In this document: positions 6,477 through 57,918 of the stretch, in pieces
Position numbering within the stretch: position 1 is the stretch's first letter
How the letters are laid out: the number at the start of each line of letters is the position of its first letter
Source of the DNA: Paramacrobiotus metropolitanus
Lineage: Eukaryota > Tardigrada > Eutardigrada > Parachela > Macrobiotidae
Assembly (NCBI RefSeq): GCF_019649055.1
Contig: NW_026570318.1
Coordinates: 186,001-250,000, forward strand
Length of the DNA: 64,000 bases
Direction: 5' to 3'
Program-made: the position numbers and the translations under genes
Notes under the pieces: generated by a model
The model's input: only the letters and a program-made list of their open reading frames with translations
Database searches by the model: none
Told to the model about the DNA's origin: nothing

Positions 6477-6536
6477 AGACTAGGTCCCGTAGCCACCCAT
6501 TATACACGGATGAGGGAAATTAATCATCCGGGGGCG

Positions 6537-31233: not shown

Positions 31234-34162
31234 ATGGCTTGTTGTACCTCAATAATTATTTTCCTGACTGCACTGTGGAGATTAGGCTCCTTTGCTACTG
31301 CTGCGCTCGACGCCGACAGCGCGCACTTCGAAGTCTTCAGGGACGATTTCGACCAAGATCAATTGAGCCTGAACTGGACGGTCATGGATGATGTACTGTC
31401 GCCATTGTTAACCCCTCCGGCTGATCGTCAGAATTTTCATTTGAGGGACGGAATGCTTCGGCTGGAGCGAGGACTCAAGTGGAACGGTTCCCACATTGTA
31501 TACGCTTCACGCAACCTGAAAACACAGTTTGCGTTCCATTTCAAATACGGGGAAATGACCATACGGGCCAAAGTCCCAGCGATACCTGATGCTGTTGCCA
31601 TCGTGGCGCTGATGTCCTGCACAATCTCCGAAAGCTTCACGTGCCGGGTGCCAACGTTACCGAGCGTAATAGCCGATTTATCGGGTGGACCTGGGAACCT
31701 AATGCAGGGTATGGTGGATTACGCCGACAGCGACGGATTGGCCATGCGACACTTTAGTCATTTCAATAGGTAAACAATTTCCTTAACAGATCATTTTTTT
31801 AACACTTCAGACTGTATGCTTTGCAGTGATAAGGCTTTTTCCCGTGATTATCACGTGCACAAGCTGGTGTGGACCCCCGAGAGCCTGGTTTGGTACATGG
31901 ACGGACAGTGGGCGCTGAATTTGACGGTCCCTGGTTTGGAGCAGTGGCCGAAGATGTATATTGGACTGGGCATAATGCCGGGGTTCGAAGAAATGGCCAG
32001 TCAGAACAACGCAACAAACAAATCGTTATCTGAAGTATTTCTCGTCGACTATGTCTATGTAAGGCAGTCCAGAGGAGGCCAAGGATTATCAGCTGGTAGG
32101 TCGACTAGGCTTAGGTTCAAATTAAAGCATCTTTCGGCCGTGTTTGAGCAGAGCTCAAGAGTGAAAACTGAATTTGATGGAATTTCAATCAAAGCAAATG
32201 AACAGTTTAGAGTTTTTCCTCTAAAATGTTCTAGTTTTAGGTGCTAAAATTATTGGAAAATATGATTAGTCATCCAGTTGACATTTGCAATCTTGGAGGT
32301 TTTTTCAATCATATTCTTACGCAGAGTATGGCGGTTTAAAATATCCTGCTCAAGTGCAGTTAATTCTATTCGTACACGTGTGTTCGAAAGGTGATCACAG
32401 CAGAAAGTGTAGGATGCGTAACATGCACATTCGTTGCAGCCGCGAAACGTGCCGTTCGATTGCCAGTCGTCTTTGGAACGGTTATTCCGACTATTATCAT
32501 ATTAGCTGCATTGGCTGTCGGATGCTGGATGCATCGTCGCAGCCGGCATAGCCTCCAGCACGGTAATATGCTACATTATGGGCGGCGGCTGCGCTTCCAG
32601 CGGAGGACCTCCAGCCTTTGCGACATATCCGGATTCGATGCCGATATCGTCATCAGAGATCTGGTGGCCAATCCCTGTGTCCGTCTGTTGGAAGTGCCGT
32701 TAGCAAGTTTGCAAATCGGTGCGTATTGCGTAGCAGAGGTTACGTTTTTGTTACGATAAATTGATACGCCCAAAAGGTTACGCTGCTTTATCCTGCTTTG
32801 GTTAAGCAGTAGTTTTGGTTGTAGCGGATAATGTTTTGGGCGGAAGTGCCCGCCATCTTTTCCGGAAAGGCTGCGCCTTTGGTTTATACATGCAGACCCA
32901 TTGTGACGCGGCAACAGCGATTGCAATTAAAACTGGAAGGTCACGAAATAACCCGTCAGTTATCCGTCGATTGCTCCACGAGATAGAAACGCGAGCCAAA
33001 GCCGGTCGCCATCTGAATATCGTCAACCTGTTGGGAGTAGTCATTAACGGTGACGTTATGTTGCTGCTGGAGTACTGCGAATTTGGATCATTGACGACTT
33101 TTTTGCGAGGACGCGCCCGCCTGGCCTTCTATGAAAAAAACAGATCGGACGAGGAAACACGGAAAATCGCGATGAGCGAAAACGGGAACCCATCAGAAAC
33201 ACCAACATCGCCAACACTTGCCGAGCCAAAGCTTAGCGGCCTGGATCCGACTGCATTAATTGCGACGCTGATTCGGTTTGCTTATCAAACCAGCCGTGGA
33301 ATGGAGTTTCTCCATAGCCGAGACATTCTCCACCGCGATCTGGCGGCGCGCAATATACTGTTGTTCGACACGAACGTGGTAAAAATATCACATTTCGGAA
33401 TGGCCCAGCGGGGACCGCAGTACACTTTAAGCGATCTGCAGGTAAACTGGCTTTTGGTATCCTAGCATGCCAGTTGGAACACTTTGTGTTGGTAGTTTGA
33501 ATTGCAAAAATTATTAACCGCTCTTTTCTTCACTGACAGGAGCCGCTACCGGTACGATGGATGCCTCCCGAAGCTATCGAGAAAAGGCTGTTCTCGCAAC
33601 AGTCAGATGTGTGGTCTTTCAGTATTGTATTGTGGGAAATGTTTAGCTTGGGCGCCATGCCGTATGCCGACGCTCACTGCATTCTGAAGCAAACGGTTGG
33701 CGACTTTCTAACGGGGCTAAAGAGCGGCTGGAGACTAGAGAAACCAGCCATATGTCCAGATTTTGTGTAAGTGATGTTTGCCTTTGGAGTGGCTCTGGAG
33801 CTATTCGCTGTATTTCGCTGAATTATTTATAATTTCCTTCAAAACACCAGATTATGCAACACTGATTTATTGCCGCCTACATAAAATACAAAACTTACAG
33901 TTTCCAGCAGTTTAATTGTTTACGCCAGCTGCAAAATCATGTTCTGATCGGTAGATTCCAACTGATGGAGCAGTGTTGGCGGCTGTCACCAGCAGAACGT
34001 TCAAATTTCGCTGAACTCGCGGGACAATTGAGAAGCATTCTCGAAGCCGAATCTGAGGAATCCTATTTGCGTTTAAACTATAACTACGCCCAGTTCAATG
34101 AAATTCACCGTGATATTTTGAAAAATACTCAATGTGAACTGGAAAGCATGAATGGCGGGTAA
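31234..34162 (+). CDS. GH16-lectin receptor tyrosine kinase, HFG subtype
   Basis: Exons 31234-31769, 31827-32095, 32440-32718, 32825-33441, 33540-33766 and 33955-34162 close as 711 aa. A signal peptide (residues 1-23) precedes a GH16-like domain: [50 protein letters not shown] and [11 protein letters not shown]. The helix [20 protein letters not shown] spans the membrane. The kinase has AIAIK (beta3 Lys), HEIE (alphaC Glu), HRDLAARN and PVRWMPPEA, but ISHFG where DFG is expected, so the magnesium-binding Asp is His. The glycine loop is loose (GGSARH). Activity is probably weak or absent, pointing to a partner-dependent receptor. It shares a 620-bp divergent upstream region with the minus-strand exon at 30147 and is followed by the DFG gene at 35331. 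Confidence 0.9.
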
Positions 34163-35330
34163 AGCGCTAGATTTCCGATGTCGATATGTCAAAATTATGT
34201 GCACGAATTTGCCCTGTATCAGCGGTCTCCGGTGAAATTATGTCATTTTATTCTGACGGTGGTGTAATTTGTTTCGTGTCAGTACTGTCAGAATTTTGCG
34301 CAAAAATTGTCTTTAGATTAATTTTTAATTTATTGTTCTTAAAAATATGGTTTATCACTGATCGCGGGAAGCAAAATGCAGTGAACTACTTGTACAAGGG
34401 CAGGTTGGAGACGTGAGCATGATGAAAATTCGAGCTACCCCGCCTTGAATTGTATTAACATAAGATACTGTGGTGCACTGTCATCTGTAATTTTTCCTTC
34501 ATGTCCGTTGAAATATCACTGAATTCATGTGATAGCTGGTGCTCACGCTAGGCATGCAACAAGACCACAGCGGAAGAAAATGAGATTCTGAAGGTGCAGC
34601 TACAGCTGACTGAGCTGAGTATTCTACATGCCGACACGCCGACATGTATTCTTTTACTGGTCAAATATCGATCACATTTAACATTCCATATACTCTGTAC
34701 GCTTTAATTATGGAGGATCAGAGGCAAATGTGCTTAGTATATTCAAGCAAATACATAGCTAAATACTCCGCAAAAATTTACGAATAAATTTTGGCGCAGG
34801 GTTGCAGGGCATCTGGAAACTGCACAGCACCGGCAACTTTTTGTAAAACAGTCTCTGAACTCATTAGCCTAATTGTTTTAGTCGCATAACCACATTTATT
34901 GGAAAGAAAGCGAAGCAGCATAAACAGTAACAGAAACTGACGAGCATTGCATGTCTACGTTATTTTATTAGTATTGCGCTCAATTGTTGTTTATTACGAT
35001 GTTTCTGATCATAAAAAATAATTATAAACCGTCAGTGTCTACATCTCTTTATTACTGCTGCCAGTACCAGCGCGATCTTTAAAGGCACAGAGAAACCGGT
35101 TTTAGACTTCCATGCAAGACACATGTATGCGATCACGCTCAGCCTTTTAGACAATGTGCAGTGTTTCTACGGTTTCTTCCATAAGTCGCACTGACACAAT
35201 CAACGACACTGCAACCGTTGAAATACATTGCGGTCTGAACATTAGACATGTTTGTGTTTTTTAAGCAGCATAGTGTAAACATGTTGTAGTTTGCGGTAAA
35301 CCGGCTTGTTGAGCTACAAACAACATAAAA
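34163..35330. other. Intergenic, upstream of the DFG-type RTK
   Basis: No gene. The last 100 bp (GTTTGCGGTAAACCGGCTTG) resemble the region before the paralogue at 51097, so promoter elements of the module are probably here. Confidence 0.4.
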
Positions 35331-38300
35331 ATGCCCAGAAAAGGTCGCTTATCACCGATGACCTCCGTGCTTGTCAGCGGAATGGTTTTTCTTTGTTACA
35401 TTGAAGAAGTATTTTGCGATGCAGATGCGACAGAGATTTTCCGCGACGATTTTCAAATGCTGAATCTGGAAAACTGGGAGGTTGCCAATGAGAGCAACGC
35501 AACTAACGCACTTTGGGATCCTGAGAACGTGTTTGCCCAAAACGGTGTATTGACCTTGAGATCTGCCATGCATAGTCAAGGCACAAATCGGTCGCGTATC
35601 AATGCTGGACTAACGACAAAGGATTTCGCCTTTAAGTACGGACAACTCTTAATTCGTTTAAAATATTCCCATGGTTACGATGACGACTCCGCTGCGTGTT
35701 CTATGATCATGTTGATGCCGTTTGGGAACGCCTCCTTTCCCAATACGTCAATCGTTTTCTGCTCTGATGCGCCTACTCTGATAATCGCATATCAGACATA
35801 CGCCGCAATCTCCGGTGAAGCCACCAAATACGAGCAAACTTTTATTAGGTGAGCCAGGTGGCGACAAAACGTCGGTGACGACGTCATGATAAGCGGAATT
35901 ATTTTTTTCTGATATTAAAAATCTTCTTTTTCTGGATATCAAAAATTTAAAATTTGACAAAGTTATGCTGTACCAATCACCTGTGTTCATAAAAGCATGA
36001 AGTAATTCGAAAGAGTTATTAGTACGAAAGAGCTATTCGAAAGAGTTATTAATACGAGTACGTAATACGCGCAAACACTCGCAAGGTCGGTGAGCTAAGA
36101 TCTTTTTCTGTAAGTCTCTTATACTGGTGTGATATGAATTTCGTCCTACAAAAAGAAAACATTTTTTCTGTTTTTGCGCTTAAGCGATGGAGATTTGAAC
36201 CTCGATTACCACATCTATCGACTGGTCAGGACGGATGAGCTGATGGAATTATATATGGACGACATTCGTCTCTTTAACCTCACCGTTCCCGGGCTGGAGA
36301 ACTGGCCAGAAATGCGCATACGACTCTTAAATGGTTTGAAAGATGGCCAGCACCCTGGAAATTTGCGTTTCATGGCAAAAGGACTTCCACCAGTACCGTC
36401 ATACGAATTTCTTATAGATTATGTCATTGTGCTGCAACAAAATAGGCTGCATAGCGGATTAACAACAGGCATGGCTGTTTTCTTGTCAAATTTTTACGGA
36501 ATTCGGTCTACAGTCTATTTACAGACAGACAATGTCACAGTTACAGATAATATCCATCTCAGGATAGTGCTGGGGGCAGCTCTACCGGTTACCCTCTTGG
36601 TGTCAACGGGATTGATTTGTCTGCTGGTTCGACGTGCAAGATACCGTCGTGCCATGCGGCGGAAACTCATTTACAAAACCAAAGGACCGCAAAGAACATC
36701 CAGTTGTCATGATACAACTCCGTTAGAACGCAGTGCCGACGTCCAGCAGCTGCTTAACAGCGAAAGCGTCAAGGCTCGCGAAACCGCACTGCAAAATTTA
36801 CAAATTTGTAAGCAGCGTTTCATTATCTGCGAAGTTATTGTACATGTAGGTTTCTTCGTTTTGTAATATTCATTGGTACCTTGCCTAGATTCATGGTTAT
36901 ATGTAATACATACTGCTGTTATTTTCAGCGAATATGATTTTGGGCCGAGGAACAACAAGCATAGTTAAGAAAGGCGTGGCCACTGGCCTCTGCGGCTGCT
37001 CTGAATCTATCGACGTGGCAGTGAAAACAGCCCGGGACAAGAGCGATCCAGTAGAAAACCGACAACTGCTACAGGAATTGAAAATTATGGCCGCGATGCG
37101 GCACGATGAGCACATTTTGCAGCTATTGGGAGTAGTATTACAAGGTACCCGTTTATTATGCAGTAAGAGGCGCTATTTTATTACGCAAGTGCTGTATGTC
37201 TCTTGCAGGGGACCTTCTCCTGGTTCTCGAATACTCCAAGTTTGGTTGCCTGAAGAATATTTTGAAAACTCGTGGAATCGAACGCTTCTACAACCATGTA
37301 GGCGCGGAGGGTGAGATCCTTCCGTACGATGATGATGAAGCGGAGCGGATTAAACTGGCCGCCGACAGAATGGTAGTGCGACGTGACGAAGCGGATGACT
37401 TCGACGGGGAGATCATGTCCACACAAACGCTCCTGAATTTCGCTTACCAAATCAGTCAGGGCATGCAGTTTCTCAATACCCTGTACATCGTGCATCGCGA
37501 TCTCGCGGCACGGAATATCCTGATTTGCGACGGATATGTGGCAAAGATATCGGATTTCGGAATGGCTCGGATGGGCACCGACTGCGTTGTCGAGGATCCC
37601 AAGGTAAGAGAGTGGGTAGATAACTGAACTGTGGATTGCTATGCCGAAATTATGCAGGAAGCGCTACCGGTTCGCTGGATGCCACCGGAAGCCATCATGG
37701 AGAAACTCTATTCGGAGATGTCGGATGTGTGGGCGTTCGGCGTTCTCCTCTGGGAAATGTTTAGCTTAGGTGCTCTTCCATATGCGGAAATCAATGTAAC
37801 CACCGGCAATAAAATTTCGGATTTCCTTACATCCTTAAGGACGGGATTTCGCTTGGACAGGCCAGCAGCATGTCCAAATGCCATGTGCGTAAGAATTCAT
37901 CCGCACGAGCGGTTTGCGAAAAGGATCTGGGTTTTTAATTTTTGTCAAATTTGACGGGGTACAGATCGATAATTACTGCTGAAAGTTAGGCCGATAGCCA
38001 CTCTGGTTATTTCCTTTTAAAGCCTTCGCTCAGTGACGCAGCCCGACGCTAGAGATTTTGATTTATACAGATTGTTTTCAAATTGAGTAGGCAAGAAACG
38101 GAAAATTTAATAAACCACGGCAGCAGTTGACAAAAACGTAAACCGCTGCGCTTTGAAATTCGGAAGCCACATGCTTCACCTATTTTTTTATATGCGGGCT
38201 GTCGGGCACGATTACCGATCATAGGATACGAAGCACTGTCGAAATTATTGACATTATTTTTGTTCGATGATTTCAGATACAATTTAATGGGGCAATGCTG

Positions 38301-38442
38301 GCAACTCACACCTGATGATCGCCCGCAGTTCGGCTGTCTCACCGAAAGTTTGCGAGGCGTATTGGAAGATGCTTGCACACAGATCTATCACCGCCTGGAC
38401 TATCGATGCCTCCACTCCGTTGCGGCCGTAAAAGGTGGATGA
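35331..38442 (+). CDS. GH16-lectin receptor tyrosine kinase, catalytically complete (DFG) subtype
   Basis: Exons 35331-35848, 36185-36468, 36547-36807, 36929-37144, 37209-37603, 37658-37884 and 38277-38442 give 688 aa. If the small GC-AG intron 36469-36546 is retained, 714 aa; both stay in frame. A signal peptide is followed by the GH16-like domain ([48 protein letters not shown]). The membrane helix is VLGAALPVTLLVSTGLICLL, then RRARYRRAMRRK. The kinase has every key residue: GRGTTS loop, [20 protein letters not shown] and [10 protein letters not shown]. This is a credible active RTK signalling after ligand binding at the surface. A kinase insert ([15 protein letters not shown]) is conserved with the paralogue at 51097. 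Confidence 0.92.
36469..36546 (+). other. 78-bp in-frame intron with GC donor
   Basis: At the position of the GT-AG intron of the paralogue (52109-52201) the donor here reads ACAG|GCATGG; the acceptor TTACAG is intact. The segment is a multiple of three and stop-free, so retention adds 26 residues outside the membrane. Confidence 0.6.
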
Positions 38443-41232
38443 CGAACATTTGTGTACATTTATGTATTACTCTGCCCATAAGAAATGCCTGCAAAGTATT
38501 CACTTCTTTCAGAATCATTCTATCAAATCAAATCTCACTCTTCCCCTTTGTTGTATTTAAAGAAAAGTAAGAACAAGGTGACGAAAAATTTTTTTATACA
38601 AATCGGGTCGATATACACCAGGTTGGGACCAATCCATCCATTGACACTTTCTGCGAGACCAACAAGACCTTCATAGTCGTGATGAGTTTTCGAAAACGGA
38701 AGCCAACATTAACACTCGTACTCATCTATAGGTCATGTGGGTCAGCCAAACAATGTCCAACCGTCGAAGATCTATCGTGTGCCAACGGTGTGGATCGTCG
38801 GTTAGGCGAAACTGTTAAACCTGGTTAAAAAACACCTAATTACGATTTGCAAGCGGTAAAGCAGTTATTAGTGGTTGTTACTGTATTTAGGCAATAATAA
38901 GGCAGGCCGCACGGAACAGCTGTCAGGCTCTTTAAACATTAATGAAGCCAACACCTAGTGAAGGCTTTACAGAAAACCCGATGTGACGGGGTTGGAACTT
39001 ATCTACACCAACCACTACTTACGGCTGCAGGAAAAGGCGAATGTCTGTCCATTGATCCGGATAGGCTAATGTCTGCACCCAGTGCGCATGTGTCGCAGTG
39101 GTCTTTTCAAATAATAGCGGGCTGACGGCCGAACACTTGTCGCTGGTTGCTGCCAAAAATATACGAAGCTGTTCTGCAGCAGCTTCCGTGGAGTAAAAGT
39201 GTAAAAGCGGAATGATAACGTCACACGGAGCGGCACTCCTGCCGCGGCGCCGGTAAACGTCGCCTCGGAAAGCGGCAAAGTCAGTGCAATAAGTGAACCT
39301 CCGCACAATATTGCCATCGCTGATTGGATGATTGCTTGCAGCGCGTTGTAGTTGATCAGCACGAGCTGCTCACAAACAGACAGTATCGGGGAAAGCGAGT
39401 CCTACTCGAAATAACCGTTGCCAGGATTGCGATGCATCGCTAATACAAACACACCAGTGCATTCATGGCCGCTCTTCGCAATAATCACAGGTGGACCAAT
39501 GCCCTTAACTTCACGAGTACGGATTTCACCTTTAAGCCTTCCACAGATGCGCTAAAACGCATATACTGCTTGAGGCATGACGGTGTTTCACGTCTTTCGT
39601 CAGCATCAGCGTATGAAAGCGTCTAGAAAGAAGGCTAACCAGCGCGGTTTTTGTTGTAAGCACTAAGGTAATTGTCGTATTCCCTTAACATTAATACACC
39701 ATCTTCACGAGCTCACTTTTCGCATATCAGGCTCAGATTGATGAGAATATGCCGCTTGTCCACGTACTGTCGGAAAAGCAACCTCCTAGAAGACACACTC
39801 TGGTGAAAGCAATTTGAACACGATAAGAAAGCTTTTACTGGGTTATTTAAGCGAGCGTTGGTTAAACACAAAATTACGCGTTACATCAGTTCAGCACAAA
39901 ATGCACTTCAACCAACCTGTTACCGACACAGAACGTTTCCTCACCACAAGCGCATTACCACGCATTAAAGCAATACTGATTCTCTGATTCAGATTCGGGA
40001 AATGAGTGGACCGTTTCTCATGCGTCCTCTCAATAAGCATCTTACCGAGTGTAGCGATCTTACATTTCTCTTCCTTGCCCCCCATACCCATTGTTTCAAA
40101 AACCAAAACAGAGAAAACAAATTAGCCGGTAGATATCCGTGCCTTTGGTTTTGTAGCATAGTGTGTTTTTAGTCTACAGTAGTGATTAATAATGCTTTGT
40201 ATCAGTGGAAAGAATGCCTATCGTATCAGTTATTTCTGATTCCTGAACCGAGTCAGAAAATGAAGACCTATCATCCTCAGAATACATTAAATTCAACCAA
40301 AACACTTATTCTTCGTCAGAATGACGTAAACAAACAGATTCTGAGGTCAATTTTGTGTCGACATTTTATCCGCGTAATTCCCCGCATACAACGGTGTATA
40401 CGTACGTATGTCCGGACATGACCATGTTGTGCGCAAGCAGCGCATTTTAAAATAAAGCTGACGCTAGTTACAGTAAACTAATGCAAGTTAATTAATTAAT
40501 GTTAGTTAATTTCGGTAAATGTGATGGGCAGTGAAATGACTGCTCAATATAACGTCGTTAAACCGTTGAATTTCGGGATCACACTATACATAACACATCC
40601 GAGTACATTATTAACATTTCCGTATGAAATACAATTCCTTTTAGGGATTTTCATCGCAACTTCGTCGGACATAAAAGCTAGGAAATTATAGGGATTCTTT
40701 TCTGTGTGCCTTTCTTGTTGATTTTTGTCGCTGAATGTGGAAGCTGCAATCATGTTTTCTTTACGGAAGTGCGTGTGATCTTAACGCATATATTGTAGTT
40801 ACGTAAAATTCATAAAATGCAATACTGACACCTCTTTATTGCTGCCGGGCGGGCCCGCCCGTTACAATACAATGCGATCGGATCATCTTTTTCCAGCTTT
40901 CTTAATACGACACATGCATAGAAGTACGAGTATGTTCACTTACGGCCTTTCTGATAACAACTGGAACAGTTTCACGGGTTCGGGTCTACGTTTTCAGAGT
41001 AAAGGCATTTCGCATAAAAGAAGAATTTTTCAACCGTACATAAGAAAGTAATGCTTCCACGGCTACAAAAAAAGATAAACTTGACAAGACGTCCAAAAAA
41101 GGTAAACTCAGCCGACCAGCGAATAGGTGATCTAAGACTGGCATGTGATCAATGGGCGTGGTTTTGTGGGAAATGCATTTACCACAAGCAGAAAATATTC
41201 GCAGCGATGGTAGACGAAAGTTGTTCGTTTGG
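38443..41232. other. Gene-poor stretch between the modules, with decayed fragments
   Basis: Contains the LINE 3' scrap at 39891-40106 and a decayed minus-strand coding-like patch (39019-39362). There two overlapping frames, with ALQAIIQSAMAILCGGSLIA and TEAAAEQLRIFLAATSDKCS, look like one broken protein I cannot name. There is also a CCGGGCGGGCCCGCCCG palindrome near 40843. No whole gene is seen. Confidence 0.45.
39891..40106 (-). pseudogene. LINE 3'-end fragment (same RLE class)
   Basis: ATLGKMLIER, RISIALMRGNALVV align with the last 60 residues of the other two LINEs (KEIGKKLFLR, RLSLEIMRGNAMSV; QKIGNGIATA, RLSIQMQRGNAICV). Only the C-terminal end is present, the usual result of 5' truncation. 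Confidence 0.75.
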
Positions 41233-44200
41233 CTACATTCTGCTGTCGTTTTGGGTTAAGGAATCGCTGCTGACAACATTATTCTGCGTGTACCAATAAT
41301 CAAGACGGAGGTATGGTTCTTCTGCCACATTGTCAGTGATGCTGCGCAGGGCGCTCGTTATGTAAGATGCATCCTTCCTTTCATCGGGCTTCCATTCCCA
41401 GCATTCAAGCAACAAGTCATACCTATCATGTTAACAGCAGCAAGATTACAAGAAGCGAAATGAGTTATTTTTCTCCCATAAGGAGAAAAATGTGCGCTTT
41501 GTGGCACTGGTACGAATAATTGCCAACGAAAGAATAATTAGGGCATTAGAGCAACTACTGTATAAGTGCTTACAATACTTTGGGACATTTTTCCGGTCTT
41601 TTCAAGCGTTCCCCGGTCTGCAAGAACGTAAGGATCTCGGCGTCTTTGCATAAATTGGCATCAACGTATGGGACTTCCCCAAAACTAAACATTTCCCACA
41701 AAACCACGCACAGTGACCACATATCAGACTTTGCCGAGAATCTGTAGTCACCAACAGACTCCGGAGCTAGATGGTAAAGCGACAGTACTTCCTGTAATGT
41801 GAAAGAAGCATAGCAAAGTCAGGGAGGTGTAAACAACAAACCTGGAACAAAATAAAACCGGTACTTCGCTTACTGCCTTATATGGGCTCCCCTTATATTA
41901 CTCTCCCTTATCTGGGCTCCCGAGCAATATGAGCAACCCTCTACATTGGCGGTTACGTTATTACTCACAGTTTTGCAGCTGTTATCAGTGTATGACTGAA
42001 TGAAAATTTAGATGTATGTACTTGAAATACTTATTTCGCCAGTACTTTTGTAGCATTGAGTTTGTATCAACGTTTGTGGCATTTTTTAGTTTGTTCATTG
42101 GCAAATCCGGTTGAAATTAATGAAAAATATATGTAGATAATATAATTATATAAATATAATTCGGATGTGAAATTTCGGAATTCTTTGATGTGCTCACTTG
42201 TAAATCCGGTTGAAAGAAGTAGAAAAGGGTTCTGCTATAAATCCGATAAATAATTTGACGGGTATTGCTCACTAGCCGGGAGCCCAGATAAGGTAGAGTA
42301 ATATAAGGGGAGCCCATATAAGGCAGTAAGCGAAGTATCGCTAATTTACCGTACGATCTGCTGCAACATACTCCGTGACCTGCTTGGCCAATTCCAGTCC
42401 ACCGATTTTTGCCACCTGTCCAGTGCAGATGAAAATAGTTCCGGCAGATAAATTGCGGTGGATAATAGAGCGAGAGTGGAGATATTCCACTCCACGGCTG
42501 ACATGGTAGGCGAAACGCAGTAAACTGCGCGTGGACAGCACCTGCCAGTCGAAATCCATCTGGATATTTTCCGAGGGTTGTGTGTCACATGCCTGTTGAA
42601 GCTGATTAGCCAGGTCTTCGTCGTAGGGTAGGAGGTTTCCGTTTGGGTCAACCTGATTGTAGAACCAATTACCGCCGTGCGCGTGCAGATAGTGCGGCAA
42701 CGTTCCGAATTCGGCGTACTCAAACAGCAGAAGGGTTTTGCCTACAATTTAGCTTCCGATGCAACTCGCTCGAATTTTTTTGATCTGATTGTATTGCCAT
42801 GAACTCTTATATACCGTACCAATCATAAAAGCGTGCACGAATTGCATTTGATAAAATAAAATGAGGACGAACTTTTCTGTACGACTCCGAGCAGTGAGAG
42901 TATGTTCATGTGCTGCCCAGCTTTGACAAATGTTTCCATCTCCTCGGTCAATAACCTCAGTTGGCAAGGATCACTGGCACTTTTCGGTCCTTTTGCGGCG
43001 AGGATTGTCGTTTTTTCTTGATCCGGAATTCCTTCGGAGTAACCTTTTAGCGTGACGCTGGTTTCGCTGGAAGCCAGAATGATCTTTGCTGAAACGGAAA
43101 ATAATTACCTATATGAGAAGTTTGTGCTGAGCTCGATCGATCGATCGCCAGCGTCAGTCTTTACTTAAGCGGATGCTCGCCAATGGAATTTCCATGCGCT
43201 GAATGCAGTCTTGGAATTCCGAGGACATTGCGAGTGTCTCATCATTGTGAGACAGTAAATTTGGGAATCTAAACATCTTGGAAACGAAACTGTTCCCCGT
43301 ATCCATCTTCTGCATGTTGCCCTGCCGCTGTCGTCTGTGCCTTATCCGAATTCCAATAATCATGGCAAAAATGCTTAATACGCCAACCGGAACAATGGTT
43401 CCCAGGGCCGTCGTTATAACGTGATCTGGAATGAAATAATCAAAAATTAGTTTAATTTCAACCTTGCAGACCAATAAGATTTGCAATAGGTATATACCAT
43501 TTCGAGTGGCATCAGTGATCTGCTGAACGGATATGTAGTCAATCCAAAACTCTTGTCTCGGTGCCATAGTGGCATTAAACGGAAAATTCGGCTCACTGTA
43601 GAATTCCATGTTTATTAATGTGAGAGCGATAAAAAGTCGTGGCCATGTTGACAGTCCAGGCACCGTCTGGTTAAGCACCATCTCCTCGTCCACAAACCAG
43701 ACCAGTACATCACGGGTCCATAGCAATCTTACGATGTGGTAGTCAGAGGACAGTTCCGCATCACTGCCAGTAACAGGTACCTTGCATGGCTAATTTGTAA
43801 GATCTGTCACTAAATTATATATGCAGATACTGCTTATTTGTTTTACGTAATCCTAATTTTCAAAATAAAGTACTAAAGTTTTAGACACGATCAGGAGCAT
43901 CGATCTAGCGTTTCATGAGTGCCAGCATTGAAATTCGTTGTAATCTTGTAATTGTTTATTGAAATCTATTCGTTAATTAGGCACTGCTCACTATTAACTG
44001 CTATAAGTAAAGAATCAAGATTCTACATAATTATTATATTGTATAGCCCACCTATAACGCAAAGCAGAGTCAGCGAGAGCGCATGCTGCGATCCGGCCAA
44101 ACAGTGAGGCACACTACCTAGGCATTTAAACCCAGTCCAACTCTACAACTATTCATAGACACAAAATCCATTTTGTTGAACTGCATATGCATATATTGAT

Positions 44201-46295
44201 TGTTTTGTCATTAACGTCAATATTAACATCGGACGAAATCATTCTTAGATGTAAAATTTGCCATTTGATCACCAGATGTATTATGCTCTTCATTTACTGC
44301 CGTGAGCCAACTTGCCCGGCAAAATGGCTCACGATTGCATGCGGAGTTTGTGTTATCTGTACTTGAACATTAACCTGAGACAACAAAACTGGGTTTCAGT
44401 ACTATTGTAATCATTTTTATCTTGCAGAAACGTATCAGTTCACCGTGCCTATTTGGCTATTACAGTCTTTGAAACACCGCAAAATTAATAAGACTATCGT
44501 GACACATAAGTTTTTAACCATTGTGCGGTGCATAATTACACACATACTTAAGGTAAGTTGGTGACGTTACTTCTAAGGTAAGTTGGTAACGTTACTATTA
44601 TTACATCAAGAGCTTATTTCGCTTCATCATGCAGCAAAATGATTGATATAGCTAAAAAAAAGAGCAGAAGAAAAACTTTTAAGTTTTCTAGTGCAAATGC
44701 TCGTGAGCATGCGTGACGAACTGGCTTGCTGTAGAGTATAAAGATTTGGTACCTGTACGGTAAAAATGAGGTATGCGACAATTGCCTTGACGTGATCTTT
44801 GCAACAACTAGCATAACATGTGAGACTCAAAACTATTGCAAACTGCAAAGTGCGCATATGTGTACTTAACCGTGAGCCATTCTGCCGGGCAGGATGGCTC
44901 ACGGGTCCCAAATTTCACAACTTGTTGGGCAGCATTGTGCATAAGTCTAACGCATTGTTGATAAATGCTGATGTTGATTGAAATCTTCAATATTTTGATA
45001 CCAGAACAACAAATTAGAACACCATGGTAAACCCATTTTTGGTATGCAGGTAGTACTTATTCAAATCAATAGGAATAGTTTTCTGCAAATTTTGATAACG
45101 ATTCTGTAAGAAATTTAAGAACGCTGTCTATGCCCTTCACTAGAAGACACTTAATACAGCAAAGCAGTCAGCCATTCTTCATAACGATAGTGGTACCATA
45201 CTCACAACGTATCTACCTATTCACGTATAGTATTTTCAGTATTGTACAATTACAGAGACATAACAATTTTATTGATAAACGACGGCAGAGTACAAATCAA
45301 TAAACATTTACAAGTTAACCAAACAATGAAAAAAGCTTAATTATCACAACAGAAAGAGTTCAATAAACTTTTCAACTCCATTATAGTATAGCATTATTGT
45401 ATACTTATCACAAGCAGTCCAAAGAGCTGTTACAAAATAATAAGCTTTACCCCAGAAATTTGTTGGCGAAGTTTTTACCAGTTGGCTAAAGTGCGTATGT
45501 TACGGTACGTAGTCACTAGCTTCTGTACATATTATACTGCATTAGCACGTATGTATGCATAACAAAACCCGGTTTATTTATATGCGTTATGTCATTAGCA
45601 TATAGTCTTCAAATGGCGATCATACTGCGCCTGCGGTGATTCATGATCGTGAGCCATTTCGCCCGCTAAAAAAGTTAACAAACCTTTTTGCGGCAAAAAA
45701 ATTTGTTCCATGAGCCAATTAACCTTTCTATACATTCTGCCGGCTACATACGCAAGCATACAAGAAATCATACGTACCAAAAGTAATAGTCATCGGCTTT
45801 TTTTTCACGATCACTGCGGTCTTTGTAAGAGACAGTGCCGAGGACTACGTGTGGATTCGTACTTCTGGAGAAGAGCTGCAAGCGCGGTAGCATCTCGAAG
45901 TCAGTACACCTGTGCTCTTTTGTGTTCCCACACGCCAGCAACCCTATAATCGCGCTGGCAAGTAAGTTGCTGGCCCGCGGGAATCTCGCGCGTACGAACA
46001 CTTCGCCATAGGTGAAATTGAATTTATCATCGGTGAAAATTCTGCTACCGGTCATTACAGTTCCCGAGCCGTTCTGTCGACTTCCAGTTCCCAGCACCAA
46101 ATGACCGTCTTCCAAGCGGACATTAGCAATATCGTATTTCTGCTCAAAAGACGGAAAGTCCTTCTGTATATACCACTTGGATTCATTCACGTAGGCACCA
46201 TTAAAATCGTCGCGGAAGGTTTCGGTCAGCTCGCTGCAAGCACGGTGATAACTTTGCAGGCAAAGGAAAAATGCCAACAACGTCGTAAATGGCAT
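41233..46295 (-). CDS. GH16-lectin receptor with pseudokinase (HRN/GGL subtype)
   Basis: Exons in order: 45778-46295, 43498-43763, 43165-43425, 42873-43088, 42350-42741, 41574-41791, 41233-41422; they close as 686 aa. The start is the ATG heading a good signal peptide (MPFTTLLAFFLCLQ), not the one 16 codons upstream. The ectodomain is GH16-like (TFRDDFNGAYVNESKW, VRLEDGHLVLG, FTYGEVFVRARFP, YHIVRLLWTRDVLVWFVDEE, FWIDYISVQQ). The membrane helix is TALGTIVPVGVLSIFAMIIG. The kinase fold persists (FAYHVSRGVEYLH, LAPESVG, DMWSLCVVLWEMFSFG), but HRD is HRN, the catalytic-loop Asn is Thr (SAGTIF) and DFG is GGL, so phosphotransfer is very unlikely. It is a probable decoy or allosteric partner of the DFG receptors. 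Intron 1 is 2 kb with palindromes; intron 5 holds a MITE. Confidence 0.9.
41863..42336. mobile_element. MITE, about 472 bp, in intron 5 of the pseudokinase receptor gene
   Basis: CTTCGCTTACTGCCTTATAT followed by GGGCTCCCCTTATATTACTC at the left is mirrored at the right end (GGCAGTAAGCGAAG) over about 65 bp. TA flanks both ends, consistent with a Tc1/mariner-type target. The interior is AT-rich with no transposase. The arms are nearly identical, so the insertion is fairly recent. Confidence 0.85.
44304..45720. repeat. Recurrent GTGAGCCA...TGGCTCAC palindromes in intron 1 of the pseudokinase gene
   Basis: CGTGAGCCAACTTGCCCGGC then AAAATGGCTCACG near 44303, and CCGTGAGCCATTCTGCCGGG then CAGGATGGCTCACGG near 44871, are two imperfect 33-bp palindromes with the same outer arms. 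A looser third pair, CGTGAGCCATTTCGCCCGC and CATGAGCCAATTAA, is at 45649 and 45709. They may be transposon ends or repeated protein-binding sites. Confidence 0.5.
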
Positions 46296-46810
46296 GATGG
46301 TCACTTCAGATCGAACGTAACTTAATTGCGGAAACATCTTCACTGTTCAAAAAATTGGTCTACTGTGTGCAGGTGGCATATGATCCAATGAAAGACTCAT
46401 ACGGTTGTTGCTTTTCAACTGAACACAATTTTGTTATTTGTACGACGGCTCACGTTCAGCACACGGTAATATCAAATATGGCCACCGTAGTAATAATTAT
46501 TATAGATTTATTACCGACACAATGCACACAAGGTGTCAAACCTTACCATGGAAAGCTTTTCCTTGCCCCAGGACATCCACAAAACATTATATCCAGCAAC
46601 CTGCCTTTTTTTCCGAGCCTGTATTTCACAGCGGTCCGCGGTGTTTTATATGTATAGAATATAGATAAACGAAAGCACTAGCGTTGCAACACCATTTGTA
46701 CAACTGGAAAGCGCTTGGTAATTATCTATCTGCGATCGATCATAAAGACTTCCAACAAATATGAAATGTTTCTGCTGTCATAAAATCAACAGCAAAAAGA
46801 TAATTACACG

Positions 46811-46818
46811 CTATAAAA
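46811..46818 (+). promoter_or_regulatory. TATA box of the decaying HFG-type gene in module 2
   Basis: ACACGCTATAAAAAC, matching the site before 31234 in sequence and surroundings. Confidence 0.6.
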
Positions 46819-47004
46819 ACTTTCATGCAACGCCGGCATTAACTGCGACAATGCCGGTTTCCAGACGTCGTACACCTTCAACAGGCTTTCAAAAACTTTC
46901 TGGTTACTTAGTCTACTTTTGCAGGCTTTCGCCAGGACGTTCCGTGAACTATCAATAATCTTTAAGATACTGTGGATGTTATTGAGCTATCCAACTTCCC
47001 TTAA

Positions 47005-47683
47005 GGGAAGTGGGCCGGTACATAGCACCAAATTCGTGCACAGGCACGAAAACTTTCACTTTCGCGCACTCCCAAACACATTTTTGTTTCGGTTTCTGAC
47101 ATTCTATAGCCAAAAGATTTGTATACACTGGCGTGAAAACCGTTTGTGCGCGCAACATCCGGTTCGGGAGTTATGGCTGTTAGAAAATTCCAAAAAGTTT
47201 AAATGGGTTCAGGTGTGCCAAAAGTCTCATTATGGACCGATCTCCTCAAATTTTGCGTAAATGCACATAACCACGAAGATCGTTTTACACCGATCCACTG
47301 TTCTAGCATGTTTTTCAAATTTTAAAGTGAATTTCAAAAATTTTAAAATTCATTTTAAAATTTGAAAAAAATCATGGAAGTCTGGATCGGTTTAAAAACG
47401 ATCTTCAAAGACATGCGCATTTATATGCAAAATTTGAGGGAGATCGGTCCATAATCAGACTTTTGGTACACCTGAATGCATTTAAACTTTTTGGAATTTT
47501 GTTACCCTCATAACTCCGCAACCGGATGTTGCGCGCGCAAACGGATTTCACAACTACGTATACAATTCTTTTGGCTACAAAATACCATAAAGCAATGCAA
47601 AAAAGTATTTGGGAGTGCGCGACAGCGAAGGTTCCCGTGGATGTACACGAATTTGGTGCTACATATGTACCGGGCCAAATCCC
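47005..47683. mobile_element. Palindromic foldback element, TTAA target, inside a signal-peptide exon
   Basis: Almost the whole 679 bp is one imperfect palindrome: arms of about 330 bp (GGGAAGTGGGCCGGTACATA at the left, matched by GGGATTTGGCCCGGTACATA read from the right) around a centre near 47340. TTAA lies at 47001-47004 and again at 47684-47687. The codons on either side (SYPTS, then LNADN) are contiguous in the paralogue, so the insertion is precise. TTAA duplication fits piggyBac- or Kolobok-like transposases acting in trans. Confidence 0.9.
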
Positions 47684-49093
47684 TTAATGCCGACAACATG
47701 CTTTTCGAAGTATTCCGAGACGACTTCAACCAAGACAAACTTAGCCTGAACTGGACGGTCTTGGACGATGCACTGCCGGCTCCGCTTGCGCCTCCGGGCG
47801 ATCGTCAGAATATTCGCCTGCAAGGCGGTATGCTTCACCTGGAACGGGGTCCGATCTGGAAAGAGTCACATATTGACTACGCTTCGCGTATCCTGAAAAC
47901 ACAGTTTAACTTTCATTTTAAATACGGCGACATGACCATTCGGACCAAAGTTCCTGCGATGCATTATGCCGCTGCCATCGTATCACTGGCGTCCTGCGCA
48001 GAAACAGAAAGCTACACATGCCGGTTACCAGCAGTTTCGAGTGTAATAATTGTAAATCTTTCGGGTGGACGTGATAATGTTATTATGGGCACTGTGAATT
48101 ACGCCGATAGTGAAGGAGTTGCCATGCGCCACGTTAGTTTCTCCAAGAGGTGAGCAACACTTTTATGGAGTTTCCTTCCAGAAATACAGAGTACATCACT
48201 ATCAGCATACGCTTACGGTGACGTATATTGTAGCGATAATGATCTGTCCCTTGATTTTCACATACACAAGTTGGAGTGGACCAGGCAGAGCCTGGTTTGG
48301 TATATGGACGAACAGTGGAAACTGAATCTTACGGTTACTGGTTTGGAGAAGTGGCCTAAAATGTACATTAGCATGGGCGTTATGCCGAGTTCTCAAGATA
48401 CGGCTGGCCAAAACAACGTAACCAACAAGTCATTGCCTCAAGTATTTCTGGTGGATTATGTCTCTGTAAGGCAGCGTAAAAGAAGCCAAGCACCAATGAC
48501 TGGTACGTCGCGCTATGTCACGGCATTGCTACACTTGCGCGCCCGGTAAAGTGCAGTTACTCTTTATCACGCTCATTTCTTCAACAGGCCTTAAAAATAA
48601 AACTGTAAGGTTACGTAACACTGATTTGTGTTACAGCCACTCAGCGCGCTGTACTGCTGCCATCGGTCCTCGGAACTGTTGTTCCAACTATCGTCGTTCT
48701 GGCTTTTTTGGCGGTTGGATGTCGGATATATCGCCGAAGCTGGCACAGCGTTCATCAAGGTACCATGCTACACTTGGACCGAATACGGCGCTTCCAGCGG
48801 AAAATGTCGAGCCTTTGCGATGCATGTGGCCTTGATACCGATGTCGTGGTTAAGGCCATGGCTGCCGATCCCAGCATTCTCCTGCTGGAGGTGCCTTTAG
48901 CCAGCTTGCACATCAGTACGTGAAAATTGTTATTGTGATCATTTCATAATAAATAAGTTAGAAATAAATTTGCCGCTGCATATACGCTATGGTAGGTTAT
49001 TCATGGTGATCGATCAGGTAATTTTACTTTTTAGCGGATCTTGTTTTGGGCAGTAGCTCCTACCACCTTATCCGGAAAGGCAGCGCGTTTGGA

Positions 49094-49343
49094 CTGTATA
49101 TGCAATCCCATTGCGATGGCGCAGCATCGATTGCGGTTAAAACTCGGAGATCACGATTGAAGTCCTCCCTTAACCGTCGACTACTCCACGAGATGTATAT
49201 GCAATCCCATTGCGTCGACTGTATATGCAATCCCATTGCGATGGCGCAGCATCGATTGCGGTTAAAACTCGGAGATCACGATTGAACTCCTCCCTTAACC
49301 GTCGACTACTCCACGAGATGGAAACACGGGCTAGAGCCGGTCG
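49094..49343 (+). repeat. 125-bp tandem duplication in the kinase N-lobe exon
   Basis: CTGTATATGCAATCCCATTG followed by CGATGGCGCAGCATCG begins at 49094 and again at 49219. A third short copy of the opening lies at about 49193. The period is not a multiple of three, so residues around the beta3 lysine (AASIAVK) are encoded twice in two frames. Confidence 0.85.
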
Positions 49344-50470
49344 CCATCTCAATATTGTCAACTTGCTGGGTGTTGTGCTTAATGGTGACGTCCTGTTGCT
49401 ACTGGAATACTGCGAATTCGGGTCGCTGACAGCTTTTCTTAGAGGACACCTTCATTCAATGTCATGTGAAGAGGACGAAATATTGCGGAAAAGCACGATG
49501 GAGAAGAACGGGGATACACGAGACGAACTTATCGAACGGAAGTGTAGCGGTCAGAATCCGAGTTCACTAACGTCGACTCTGATTCGCTTTGCTTACCAAA
49601 TCAGCCGTGGAATGGAATTTCTGCATAGTAGAGCCATTCTGCATCGTGATCTGGCGGCTCGCAATGTATTGCTTTTTGATACTAATGTCGTGAAAATATC
49701 TCATTTTGGAATGGCCCAGCGAGGACCTATGTATACTTGCCATTTGCAGGTAAAATATTTGTTAACACACAAGCTATCGGCGACTTTGCGGCTCTTTAAT
49801 ACGAATTCACGCCGTCGAACTGGTTCTCTGAGATTCTAGCGAACCTAGAGTCTCAAAAATTAGCGATTTAATTTGGTTGGACAAGGCAGAACGCAATAAA
49901 TAATCTACGCTTCCATTGGCAGGGGCCGCTGCCGGTGCGATGGATGCCTCCGGAAGCCATCGAAAACAGGTTATTCACTCAGCCATCGGACGTATGGTCA
50001 TTTGGCGTAGTATTGTGGGAAATGTTTACCATGGGTGCTACACCCTACGCCGCCACCCACTGCATCCAAAAGCAGTCTGTTGGCGACTTCCTGGCCGGGC
50101 TAAAGAACGGTCTCCGCCTGGACAAACCAATGACATGTCCAGAGTTTATGTAAGTGGTTATTGTAGTAGGTTGCCAAATCTGATTCTTGGCAGATGTACA
50201 TGAAATGATTTAATTAGCATGTGTCTAAACTTTTGCCATGTCGACCTTAAGCAAGGTGATCTGATTGGTAGATACCACCTCATGCAGCAGTGTTGGCAGC
50301 TGTCACCTGAAGATCGTCCAAATTTTGCCGTGCTCTCCGAACAGTTTAAAATCATCTTAGACAGCGAGACGGAGGATACTTATCTGCGGTTAAACAATAG
50401 CTACGCCCAGTTTAACGATATTCATCGTGATATTTTGAAGAACGCTTTTGAAGTACACGTTAATCGTTAA

Positions 50471-51096
50471 TATGTATATCCCGTGAATCTAAGTGTGGTC
50501 GGCAGCTTCCCTACGTAGTGCCAGTAAATTGTTACGATAGCTGTTCAAAATAGTTTCGCTGTCACTTGGTTAGTTTTGTTTGTAGCGTTTTATAATCCCA
50601 CCGCTGCTATGGTCGTCTTAGGCCACTCTGCCGCTCAATGTGGAAGGCTATAATTACGGCATTTTTATGAGAATGTTTGTACCCATAAAACCGTAATCAT
50701 ATACCGCCGATATTGACGTATCTATACAGTAACTGCATTATGAGCGCGAGTTGTTAACAACACAATGCAACCGGTTTCCACCATTCCACGTAAAACACAT
50801 GCACACGATCACGCACAGCGTAATTTACAATTATTGTAGACACATGTGAACGGTCTGTATAGACTAGGCATCATATACAGTATTCGGCGTTTTTGTCTGT
50901 ACAAACATAGAAGTATTTGTGGTTTATTCCGATAGTTGGTCTCACGTCAGAACAATCAACGCTGCAGCCATCGACAGTCACAATGTAAAATGCTTTGATC
51001 AGAGTTAACTTGCGGTATACCGTATACGTACGTGTATGCTGTGCGTGGTAAATAGGCTTATCCAGTTACAATTTGCGTTTTGTGCAGGATACACAA
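50471..51096. other. Intergenic, upstream of the second DFG-type RTK
   Basis: No gene. A stretch near 51010 (TTGCGGTATACCG) corresponds to the one before 35331. Confidence 0.4.
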
Positions 51097-54000
51097 ATGC
51101 TGGTAAGCAACCGCTTATTATCAGTCATTTCTGTGTTTGCCTGGATTATTTTTCTTGGGTGCAATGACGGAGTATTTTGTGAGGAGGAAGCAACGGAGAT
51201 TTTTCACGATGATTTTCAAACGTTGAATCTTGAGAAATGGGTCGTATCCAATGAGCATGACGCAACCGAGGATTCAAATTTCGATCCTTCGAATGTGTTT
51301 GCCAAGAACGGTCTGCTGACATTAAAATCGGCTCGGGAGCGTCACGATGCGAAACGGTCGCGTATTAATGCTGCAGTAACGACAAAGGATTCGTTTAAAT
51401 ACGGACAAATCTTAATCCGCGGAAAGCATCCACACGTTTACGCGGTCGACAGCTCTGCCTGTTCTTTGCTGATGCTAGTGCCGATTGGCAACAAGTCCTT
51501 TCCCAATACGTCCATCGGTGCTTGTGCTGCTACACCAATTTTGATAACTGCACATCAGACGTACGTCACGGTCGCCGGTGAAATTACTACTTATGGTCAA
51601 ACTTTCATGAGGTGAGACAGACGACAACAATCCCCGGTGAGGCTCCACCATTTTTTACCAAAATGTTTTATCCGGTCTATAAAATTATACGTACGCACGA
51701 TCTTACCACGAACCAAATATGTGATCACACACAACAAATATGCGCATACGCGCAAATGTTGTAGCACCGCAAGTTTTATCAGGGCAATATTTTTTTTACC
51801 TCCTGCGAAGTACGCCCTTTTATTTTTTTCATTTGCCTTTAGCGATACAGATTTGACCACTGACTACCACACTTACCGGCTGGTGTGGACGGAAGAACTG
51901 ATGGAATTGTATATGGACGATATCCGCCTGTTTAACCTAACAGTTCCCGGCTTGGAAAACTGGCCTGCAATGCGCATACGATTGATGATTGGTTTTCCAG
52001 ATCTTCCGAATCTCCGTTCCCTGTCACAAGAACGCTCCCCAGTTACATCATACGAGTTTCTTGTAGATTATGTCATTGTGGTGCAACAATATAGCGGATT
52101 AAGAACAAGTATGGTTACTTTTTTCAAAGTTTTGAAGATTCTCTCTACCGATAGTTTACTCTACTGATATAATTATTATTATTACTCTTCGGCTTTTCCA
52201 GATAGTGTCACTCTTCGGATAGCGTTGGGCGTGGCTCTACCCCTTACCATCCTGGTATCAGGTGGATTTATTTATCTGCTGGTACGACGCGCCAGATGCC
52301 GTCGTGCCAAGCGCCGAAATATCATTTCCAAAACCGTCGGACTCCCTCGATCATCCAGTCACTATGATGCAACAACGTTGGAACGCAATGCCCATGTTCT
52401 GCAGTTGCTTCAAAGTGAAAGCGTTAAGGCTCGCGAAATCACTCTGCAGAATTTGCAGATTAGTAAGCAGTGTCTAATTACATGAAAAACCGAGGATTTT
52501 TATGTTAATTGATAATAAATAGTATCTTGCATAGAACTATAGATACATTAAAATAAATGTTCCTTTTTATTTTCAGCGAATATTATTCTGGGGCGAGGAA
52601 CAACAAGTGTAGTTAGGAAAGGTGTGGCCACAGGCCTCAGTGGCTATTCGGATCCGGTCGGCGTAGCAGTCAAGAGCGCCCGTGACACAAGTGATCCGGT
52701 GGAGAGCAGACAATTGCTCCAGGAACTGAAAATTATGGCAGCGATGCCGCATCATGAGCACCTTCTGCAACTGTTGGGGGTGGTAATAAGAGGTGTCTAT
52801 TACATTTTTTTCCTGTCTTCAGTTCGGGTGTTCGTTATTAGGCCAGCCGTGTATATTTTCCACAGGTGACCTTCTTTTGGTTCTCGAATACTCCAGGTTT
52901 GGTTGCTTGAAAAATATGTTGAAAACTTACGGCATCGAACGGTTTTATAATCATGTGGACGCGGATGGCGCGATTCTTCCGTACGATGATGACGAAGCGG
53001 AGCGAATTAAACTAGCCTCCGATAGAGTAGTAATGCGCCGTGATGAAATGGAAGAACTCGATGGGGAGGTCTTGTCCACACAAACTTTCTTGCATTTCGC
53101 TCACCAAATCAGTCAGGGCATGCAATTCCTCAGTACTCTGTCCATCGTTCACCGCGATCTCGCTGCTCGAAATATTCTAATTTGCGACGGATATGTGGCC
53201 AAAATATCGGATTTCGGAATGGCGCGGATGGCTACCGAATGCTCTGTAGAAGATCACAAGGTACGAAACTACGAATGCGACTGCGTCATTATGGGTGCAT
53301 AGCTGAATCCTGTATTTTTATGTCACGTGATGCTGCACAGGAAGCGCTGCCGGTTCGCTGGATGCCACCGGAAGCCATCGTAGAGAAACTCTACTCGGAG
53401 AAGTCGGACGTGTGGGCGTTCGGTGTTCTTCTGTGGGAAATGTTCAGCTTAGGTGCTCTTCCTTACGCGGAGGTCCACGTTTCCACCGGAAATAAAATTT
53501 CGGATTTCTTAGCTTCGCTAAAGACGGGATTACGTTTGGGCAGGCCAGCAGCATGTCCGAATGCCATGTGCGTAAGCATCCCCGGAGTACATAATTATTA
53601 GCACGATTGGCTAGTGCACAGTATAATGTTCTATGCTACGTTTCACGTTTTCAAATTTTAGATCAACAGTTGTTGTAGTACAAAGACGCTTTGAGCGTCA
53701 CACCGCTTCTTTTTAATGCATTTGCTCAACGACACTAAATAATCACCCAAAATTTGGTTAAAAAAACTATATTTTAAAAGTGAAATTAGGATAGATTAGA
53801 GGATAGATGACAGAAATTGTTATGAAGATAAACTGCTAGGCTCTGAATGTTAAAGCATCATCCATAAAATACTTCACTAAGTTTTTTTATGATTACGGAT
53901 ACTGTAATCAAACGCTGTCAGAACTGATGTTTTGTTATTTTTTCCGCTGATTGCAGATACAGTTTAATGGGACAATGCTGGCAGCTCCTTCCAAATGATC

Positions 54001-54122
54001 GGCCGAATTTTGGCTGTCTCACGCAAAGTCTGCGTGGTATATTGGAGGATGCTTGTACGCAGATTTATCATCGCTTGGATTATCGATGCCTTCAGCCAGA
54101 TGCGGCTAAGAAAGGCGGATGA
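51097..54122 (+). CDS. GH16-lectin receptor tyrosine kinase, catalytically complete (DFG), second copy
   Basis: Exons 51097-51611, 51843-52108, 52202-52462, 52577-52792, 52866-53260, 53341-53567 and 53957-54122 close as 681 aa. The ATG at 51097 heads a signal peptide ([15 protein letters not shown]). The GH16-like ectodomain has [45 protein letters not shown] and [11 protein letters not shown]. The membrane helix [20 protein letters not shown] is followed by basic residues. The kinase has [30 protein letters not shown] and [10 protein letters not shown]. Exon lengths 261, 216, 395, 227 and 166 equal those of 35331-38442, showing direct duplication. Expected role: ligand-driven tyrosine phosphorylation at the plasma membrane. 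The LTR-element array begins in its 3' flank, 5 bp after the stop. Confidence 0.93.
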
Positions 54123-57682: not shown

Positions 57683-57918
57683 TGTTCAAACCAGGAGCGC
57701 CATTTGTCATAGGTAGTGCTACCTATATCCTATAAATCTACAGTATGGGGAAACATGGGGTGTCCCTAAAGAATACCTTTTATTCATAAATGGGAGAAAA
57801 TACATAAAAATGGATAAATCAAGATCAGAGACACTGATATTCCAGTAGAAAATCCATTAACAGGGGCACTTCCATAGCTAATCACCACCATGGGCTGTTA
57901 CAGTATACACCGTGACAC

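Follow-up and report, generated by a model that had tools for sequence, protein, structure and literature searches.

Can the fold of a glycan-degrading enzyme become the extracellular head of a receptor tyrosine kinase (RTK)? This question is raised by a stretch of 64,000 nucleotides of intron-bearing DNA from the eukaryote Paramacrobiotus metropolitanus (Tardigrada, Eutardigrada, Macrobiotidae; assembly of 169.8 Mb), which was analysed as a whole and is called the window below. Five genes of the window (denoted g1 to g5) had been read in the first-pass annotation as a leader, an ectodomain similar to glycoside hydrolase family 16 (GH16), one membrane helix and a cytosolic tyrosine kinase. Judged by sequence, the architecture of this family is indeed a leader, a GH16 domain of the laminarinase type devoid of its catalytic triad, one helix and a juxtamembrane segment, followed by a split PDGFR/CSF1R/VEGFR-type kinase.

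Motif scanning located the kinase and ectodomain motifs, and exons were joined into chains on the basis of splice signals, phase and the similarity of the genes to one another; both the quoted motifs and the genes lie at the positions first assigned to them. The genes g1, g2, g4 and g5 each possess a hydrophobic N-terminal leader, a GH16-like region, one membrane helix and a tyrosine kinase on a single chain, which is the layout of an RTK (the leaders were judged by eye, and helix hydropathy was computed for g1, g2 and g5). Gene g1 (31234..34162, plus strand) encodes 711 aa in six exons (31234-31769, 31827-32095, 32440-32718, 32825-33441, 33540-33766 and 33955-34162) and is predicted to be a pseudokinase with an HFG motif. 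The HRD and DFG motifs are intact in g2 (35331..38442, plus strand; 688 aa, seven exons) and in g4 (51097..54122, plus strand; 681 aa, seven exons: 51097-51611, 51843-52108, 52202-52462, 52577-52792, 52866-53260, 53341-53567 and 53957-54122). Gene g5 is located on the minus strand (46295-41233; 686 aa, seven exons: 45778-46295, 43498-43763, 43165-43425, 42873-43088, 42350-42741, 41574-41791 and 41233-41422), and the changes of HRD to HRN and of DFG to GLE mark it as a putative pseudokinase. A phase-2 intron within the head and a phase-1 intron ahead of the helix are common to all four genes. In g2 the latter is a GC-AG intron (36469-36546) assigned by comparison with g4, and its retention would give a product of 714 aa instead of 688. 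The exon joins of the window are based on splice signals and similarity, and g4 alone also has an identical NCBI model: the product of its exon chain coincides with the 681-aa protein P0001 of P. metropolitanus over all 681 residues. A spliced-alignment script with g2 as the template recovered the exons of g4 except the first codons and the stop.

The proposed architecture thus stands for four of the five genes and fails for g3 (47602..50470, plus strand), a broken g1-like copy with the HFG motif. Its ectodomain exons are open (47602-48149 and 48234-48502), the frame of its N-lobe kinase exon is interrupted, and the gene as assembled does not encode a full receptor. This kinase exon contains a 104-nt direct repeat (49092-49195 / 49217-49320, plus strand; 99% identical, spacing 125 nt). 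No leader of g3 was found beside a 232-nt inverted repeat (47023..47661; 82% complementary, 175 nt apart) that occupies the expected leader site.

Fusion of the head to the kinase can be demonstrated independently of intron calls, because in locus L033 (contig C130) the GH16 domain, the membrane helix and the kinase N-lobe (GEGHFGKVW ... VAVKEI) are read in one frame without interruption. The GH16 domain and the helix also share a frame in L022-L025, L027 and L028, and this frame includes the juxtamembrane segment in all of them except L025. It had further been suggested that GH16 and tyrosine kinase profiles should be looked for on one protein, and at least nine NCBI-predicted proteins of P. 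metropolitanus carry both Pfam domains: P0001; P0002, P0003, P0005, P0006, P0007 and P0008 (among the best 120 of 250 matches); P0122 and P0123. The names given to such proteins by NCBI are FGFR4-like, VEGFR3-like, PDGFR-like, Kit-like and ver-3-like. Two GH16-like domains in tandem are found in receptors or receptor-like models, namely in P0122 (by eye), in P0004, a two-head model without a kinase, and on contig C25 at ~1150000-1175400.

The size of the family was assessed by searching the genome with Pfam GH16, two receptor heads, the Pfam kinase and the g2 kinase, followed by clustering of the matches. This gave 72 GH16-like head clusters on 28 contigs, 53 of which have a kinase cluster on the same strand at most 6 kb downstream, with 48 distinct kinase clusters used. 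Random placement would give ~0.18 pairs (72 x 0.0025), so that chance pairing of heads with kinases is excluded. The control pairings (10/72 on the opposite strand, 11/72 upstream) are above zero because of tandem clustering. From the at least 48 kinase clusters we estimate ~48, i.e. roughly fifty, GH16-headed receptor genes, a number counted from the matches listed and from clusters that may split or merge genes. Twenty regions were fetched round strong GH16 matches; 13 contain a head and a kinase, and seven have no kinase within the stretch fetched. All eight regions picked later from the paired list hold both. The window itself belongs to an array on contig C98 (matches from ~172 to 240 kb), which has further members upstream of the window. 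With regard to other species, all seven GH16-plus-kinase proteins among the best 120 of 599 matches of a family-wide protein search (7995 candidates scored) are from P. metropolitanus; P0001 and P0008 are not among the matches listed, and absence elsewhere is not implied.

The GH16 ancestry of the heads is upheld by several comparisons, in agreement with the first-pass reading of the ectodomain. The Pfam GH16 profile (PF00722) matches g4 with E 2.8e-6 (27.3 bits vs the cut-off of 22), while g1 (21.9 bits, E 1.4e-4) and g5 (21.2 bits, E 2.1e-4) are just under this cut-off. There is no Pfam GH16 match in g2, the ectodomain of which is 64% identical to that of g4. Alignment of the five window heads with 10 bacterial or metagenomic GH16 proteins by hhalign gave a probability of 99.6 and E 9.9e-25 over 208 columns. 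Paralogues nearer to the enzymes put this ancestry beyond doubt: the head of P0002 matches Pfam GH16 with E 3.5e-16 (59.6 bits) and a GH16 laminarinase of the PDB with E 1.6e-36. In g1, g2, g4, g5, P0002, P0007 and P0008 no Pfam immunoglobulin match was found, GH16 being found instead in all except g2; the only extracellular Pfam families over the cut-off in these seven proteins are GH16 and SKN1/KRE6 (PF03935), the latter overlapping GH16 in P0002. From this homology a concanavalin-A-like beta-sandwich is the expected fold of the heads.

In the alignment of 28 receptor heads (g3 and the kinase-less P0004 counted) with 15 bacterial or metagenomic GH16 proteins, the three residues of the catalytic triad are kept in 0, 0 and 1 of the 28 heads, and the whole triad in none. 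An active glucanase head is therefore rejected for these 28. Because the profile is recognizable and the catalytic E-x-D-x-x-E is lost, the heads are best described, on sequence grounds, as a GH16-derived domain and not as a GH16 enzyme. The genome also contains a kinase-less GH16 gene (L021) with the E-D-E triad intact, the only intact motif among the seven kinase-less regions fetched; its last exon ends directly after the GH16 domain. Nine further positions (three W, two Y, two N, one E and one R) are near-invariant in the enzymes, and we take them to line the sugar cleft. All nine are kept in L021 and in 7/28 receptor heads (L022, L023, L024, L025, L027, L028 and L037, three of which are near copies); six are left in L031, five in L026 and no more than three in each of the remaining 19. 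The core residues are retained despite the changes in the cleft. The canonical subset with the full cleft thus resembles lectins derived from a glucanase, and in most members, the window genes included, the surface appears to have been rebuilt on a kept core.

The kinase domains show the relationship and the kinase insert of class III/V RTKs (PDGFR/VEGFR) and are split tyrosine kinases. Among their best PDB matches (best 60 of 1042), one EGFR chain is followed by CSF1R, FLT3 and PDGFRA. The aspartates of HRD and DFG are both kept in 21/26 kinase models, g2 and g4 among them (HRD reads HCD in L026). The DFG aspartate is lost in the other five: g1 and L054 (HFG), g5 (GLE), L055 (GFG) and L049 (AGLGMAK). 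In g5 the HRD motif is lost as well, and in g1 it is intact. L051, missed by the pattern, reads ICDFG (L049 and L051 were read by eye); outside the 26 models, g3 reads HFG and L035 has both HRD and DFG. The same two kinds of motif loss recur in separate copies, and for this reason it is suggested that the losses are old. The proposal that glycan binding is coupled directly to tyrosine phosphorylation therefore needs to be divided: the motifs of g2 and g4 are consistent with it, and g1, g3 and g5 carry pseudokinase signatures. In L026 (C136:162300-170300) the exon with the HRD-type motif (HCD) occurs three times in tandem, and the NCBI model P0005 holds all three copies. A tail motif, YxxL[DN]xxYxx[FYN]N, is present in 14/17 GH16 proteins and in 13/26 models, several of which are cut short at the tail. 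A comparison of this tail with ITAM was dropped, as the outgroup receptors share the first half of the motif (YLxL; by eye).

What is the origin of these receptors? In the tree of the heads, a branch (99/99) separates 21 receptor heads from L021 and 16 bacterial or metagenomic GH16 proteins. This is most simply read as a single origin of the receptor head; L021 is the only animal GH16 enzyme in the tree, and the GH16 domain may be of vertical or of bacterial origin. The kinase tree places the tardigrade kinases apart from six outgroup receptors (100/99), and kinases with other heads appear among them. The non-GH16 kinase loci read (L041-L047) comprise four with an astacin-type domain upstream of the kinase (L041, L042, L043 and L044), one with a peptidoglycan recognition protein (PGRP) domain (L046), one with a weak MAM match under the cut-off (L047), and one with a further ectodomain (L045). 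The zinc motif of astacins is intact in L041 and L042 (HELMHTLGFYHE) and altered in L044 (RELMHVLGFYNE); the assignment of L043 comes from a search match inside the locus. L046 (C63:792200-796000) contains a PGRP (Amidase_2) ectodomain, a membrane helix and a tyrosine kinase in this order, and a comparison of its head with human PGRP-I-alpha gives E 1.2e-18. The same order is seen in L056 (C6:2736500-2739000), with PGRP exons, a near-identical helix segment and kinase exons. A search with the L046 exon gave 24 PGRP clusters, 10 of which have a kinase at most 6 kb downstream (one at 5.5 kb), compared with two on the opposite strand and four upstream in the controls.

The four kinases with astacin heads are placed within the GH16-headed group, adjoining the window genes (99/97; 97/97 without the long branches, which include L046 and L047). 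A single clade of the GH16-headed kinases that excludes the astacin-headed ones was rejected (AU p 0.0016) in a test in which heads were assigned to the rows before tree building, and which shares the long-branch risk of its model. This nesting together with the AU result implies that heads were exchanged or replaced in evolution, provided that the automatic kinase models hold.

Substitution rates were obtained by simple counting. For seven pairs tested, dN/dS is 0.04-0.28 in the heads and, where compared, 0.12-0.35 in the kinases; such values are, on this evidence, those of constraint against amino-acid change in both domains. The heads evolve faster than the kinases in g2/g4, L024/L027 and L024/L028 and slower in L022/L025. 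In the latter pair dN/dS of the helix and juxtamembrane part reaches 0.76 (the join in L025 is doubtful). For g1 and g3, the pair with HFG, the C-lobe exon likewise shows constraint, with a ratio of 0.09 (dN 0.153, dS 1.678).

Taken together, these data are explained best, although we would put this as slightly short of an even chance, by an RTK class expanded in tardigrades with dead-glucanase heads, which senses glycans in its canonical members and other ligands in the derived ones. The dead glucanase would serve as a binding head, and the canonical members with the likely cleft would have fungal, algal or bacterial glucan-like polymers as ligands. A polymeric ligand would cluster the receptors, the kinases would phosphorylate each other in trans, and the tail tyrosines would recruit SH2 proteins. 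The derived members, window genes included, would use the rebuilt surface for other ligands. HER3 is a pseudokinase that acts as a partner of active receptors, and g1, g5 and their relatives may play a similar part. Recognition of microbes or of microbial food appears the likeliest use, because the same broad kinase group carries PGRP heads. A wider formulation is possible and somewhat less probable, namely that the animal senses microbes by pattern-recognition RTKs in which a PDGFR-like chassis bears interchangeable hydrolase-derived heads (dead GH16, PGRP and astacin) exchanged in evolution, with pseudokinase partners, and in which the binding of a microbial polymer is turned directly into tyrosine phosphorylation.

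Several points weigh against the glycan-sensing explanation. It is built on sequence throughout. The five window genes, with 0-2 of the nine likely cleft positions, are among the 19 heads that retain at most three, and the seven full-cleft heads had been chosen beforehand as canonical by the analyst. The place of L046 in the kinase tree is unsure (a long branch and a rough automatic kinase model), and that of L047 likewise. Expansion by tandem duplication is common, too, for developmental or sensory receptors. An arms race of the heads finds no support, given the mixed order of head and kinase rates and head dN/dS below 0.3.

The strongest competitor, a serious possibility although not one we would expect to hold, is that the GH16 scaffold became a protein-binding head, and that the genes encode receptors of growth-factor, adhesion or pheromone type that serve development, sex or sensing and have no glycan ligands. 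The loss of the likely cleft over a kept core, described above, would be natural for such a head. The kinase is of the growth-factor receptor type, and tandem arrays with pseudokinase partners suit a receptor repertoire of any kind. However, seven members keep the entire likely cleft, and other kinases of the genome bear PGRP heads, i.e. a fold of microbe recognition. The latter heads, pointing outward to bacteria, also argue against the idea that the receptors read carbohydrates of the animal's own matrix, cuticle or eggshell (in moulting or in eggs) and not microbes. A dead glycosidase cleft is suitable for any beta-glycan, and the astacin heads of L041 and L042 suggest matrix substrates; nevertheless, we consider this unlikely.

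Very improbable is the view that these are mostly decaying duplicates of a few genes, with many functionless copies. Some observations speak for it. Beside the broken g3, the window holds a solo exon-1 relic of a GH16-like head akin to g5 (30150..30638, minus strand; search match at 30210-30605), with no second exon or kinase among the open frames listed beside it. It also holds a headless copy (3..1389, minus strand; by eye from open frames), a g5-like pseudokinase receptor with a leader and a membrane helix and no GH16 ectodomain between them, which is cut by the window start. Stop codons interrupt the models L049 and L054 (one in each), the automatic models L023 and L025 have doubtful joins, and 7/20 GH16 regions lack a kinase in the stretch fetched. 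Against this, dN/dS is well below 1 in all seven pairs, for the head and, where compared, for the kinase, and 24/26 models are without a stop. Finally, a false joining of adjacent GH16 and kinase genes, for which it can be said that most window joins come from splice signals and conservation only, is rejected as practically incredible by the single frame of L033 and the identity of g4 with P0001, and the same order recurs at 53 head clusters.

How do these receptors compare with known systems? They resemble PDGFR, CSF1R, FLT3, KIT and VEGFR (classes III and V) in the split kinase with an insert, the single helix and, in part, the YLxL-like tail (by eye). They differ by having GH16 in place of immunoglobulin repeats and by the separate position of the six outgroup receptors in the kinase tree. 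Bacterial laminarinases (GH16; PDB 4dfs and 3azx) contain the homologous domain, as the match of the P0002 head demonstrates, but these are enzymes with the E-D-E triad, which the receptor heads lack. Plant L-type lectin receptor kinases form large families of single-pass kinase receptors with a concanavalin-A-like lectin head; their kinases are, however, of Ser/Thr type and their heads of the legume-lectin type, so that the similarity is at most convergent. Arthropod Gram-negative binding proteins (GNBPs), or beta-glucan recognition proteins, consist of an N-terminal glucan-binding domain and a dead GH16 domain put to use as a lectin. They share with the present heads the GH16 descent and the loss of catalytic residues, but they are secreted and feed a protease cascade, whereas here a membrane helix and a tyrosine kinase follow. 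GNBPs bind microbes upstream of Toll, according to PMC7056985. Venus kinase receptors are described in PMC4026697 as RTKs limited to invertebrates, whose ligand-binding module is also known from receptors of a different type; they combine a Venus flytrap head with an insulin-receptor-like kinase, in contrast to the GH16 head and PDGFR-like kinase described here.

The rest of the window contains other elements. Reverse-transcriptase-like open frames at 3465-6479 (minus strand; with YMDD, by eye) and 19068-21650 (minus strand; in pieces) are probably non-LTR retroelements. An F-box-like gene (by eye: VLREVLDMLDSVQRANCRRVSSVWDAVVG) is repeated in tandem, in G+C-rich copies, at 24100-29700 (plus strand), and two similar tandem open frames of 367 aa are located at 54848-55948 and 56585-57685 (minus strand). 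A search of the window with Rfam gave nothing above the gathering scores.

The finding should be viewed against what is known of tardigrade immunity. A survey of eight tardigrades (Mapalo et al. 2020, PMC7056985) reports few Imd genes and neither NF-kB nor intracellular components of the Toll pathway. No homologue of GNBP1/3 or PGRP-SA/SD is given there for any sample; homologues of Toll and Spaetzle are present, and most of the eutardigrades sampled have PGRP homologues. Judging from their predicted architecture, GH16- and PGRP-headed tyrosine kinases could fill this gap. No published GH16- or PGRP-headed RTK was found among the matches listed in the literature searches, within the scope of papers free of subscription, which agrees with the first-pass remark that no described class with a GH16 ectodomain was known to its author; in a term search of PMC11191345 the word "kinase" occurs 0 times.

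RTK classes are distinguished by their heads, and GH16 and PGRP heads have no description among the papers listed in the searches. How microbes are detected by tardigrades that lack the standard pathways is an open question (PMC7056985), and the receptors are named genes with which it can be tested. If the proposed explanation is true, they would be the animal counterpart of plant lectin receptor kinases. They would also clearly exemplify the conversion of an enzyme into a receptor, in a genome that still contains a related enzyme without a kinase (L021).

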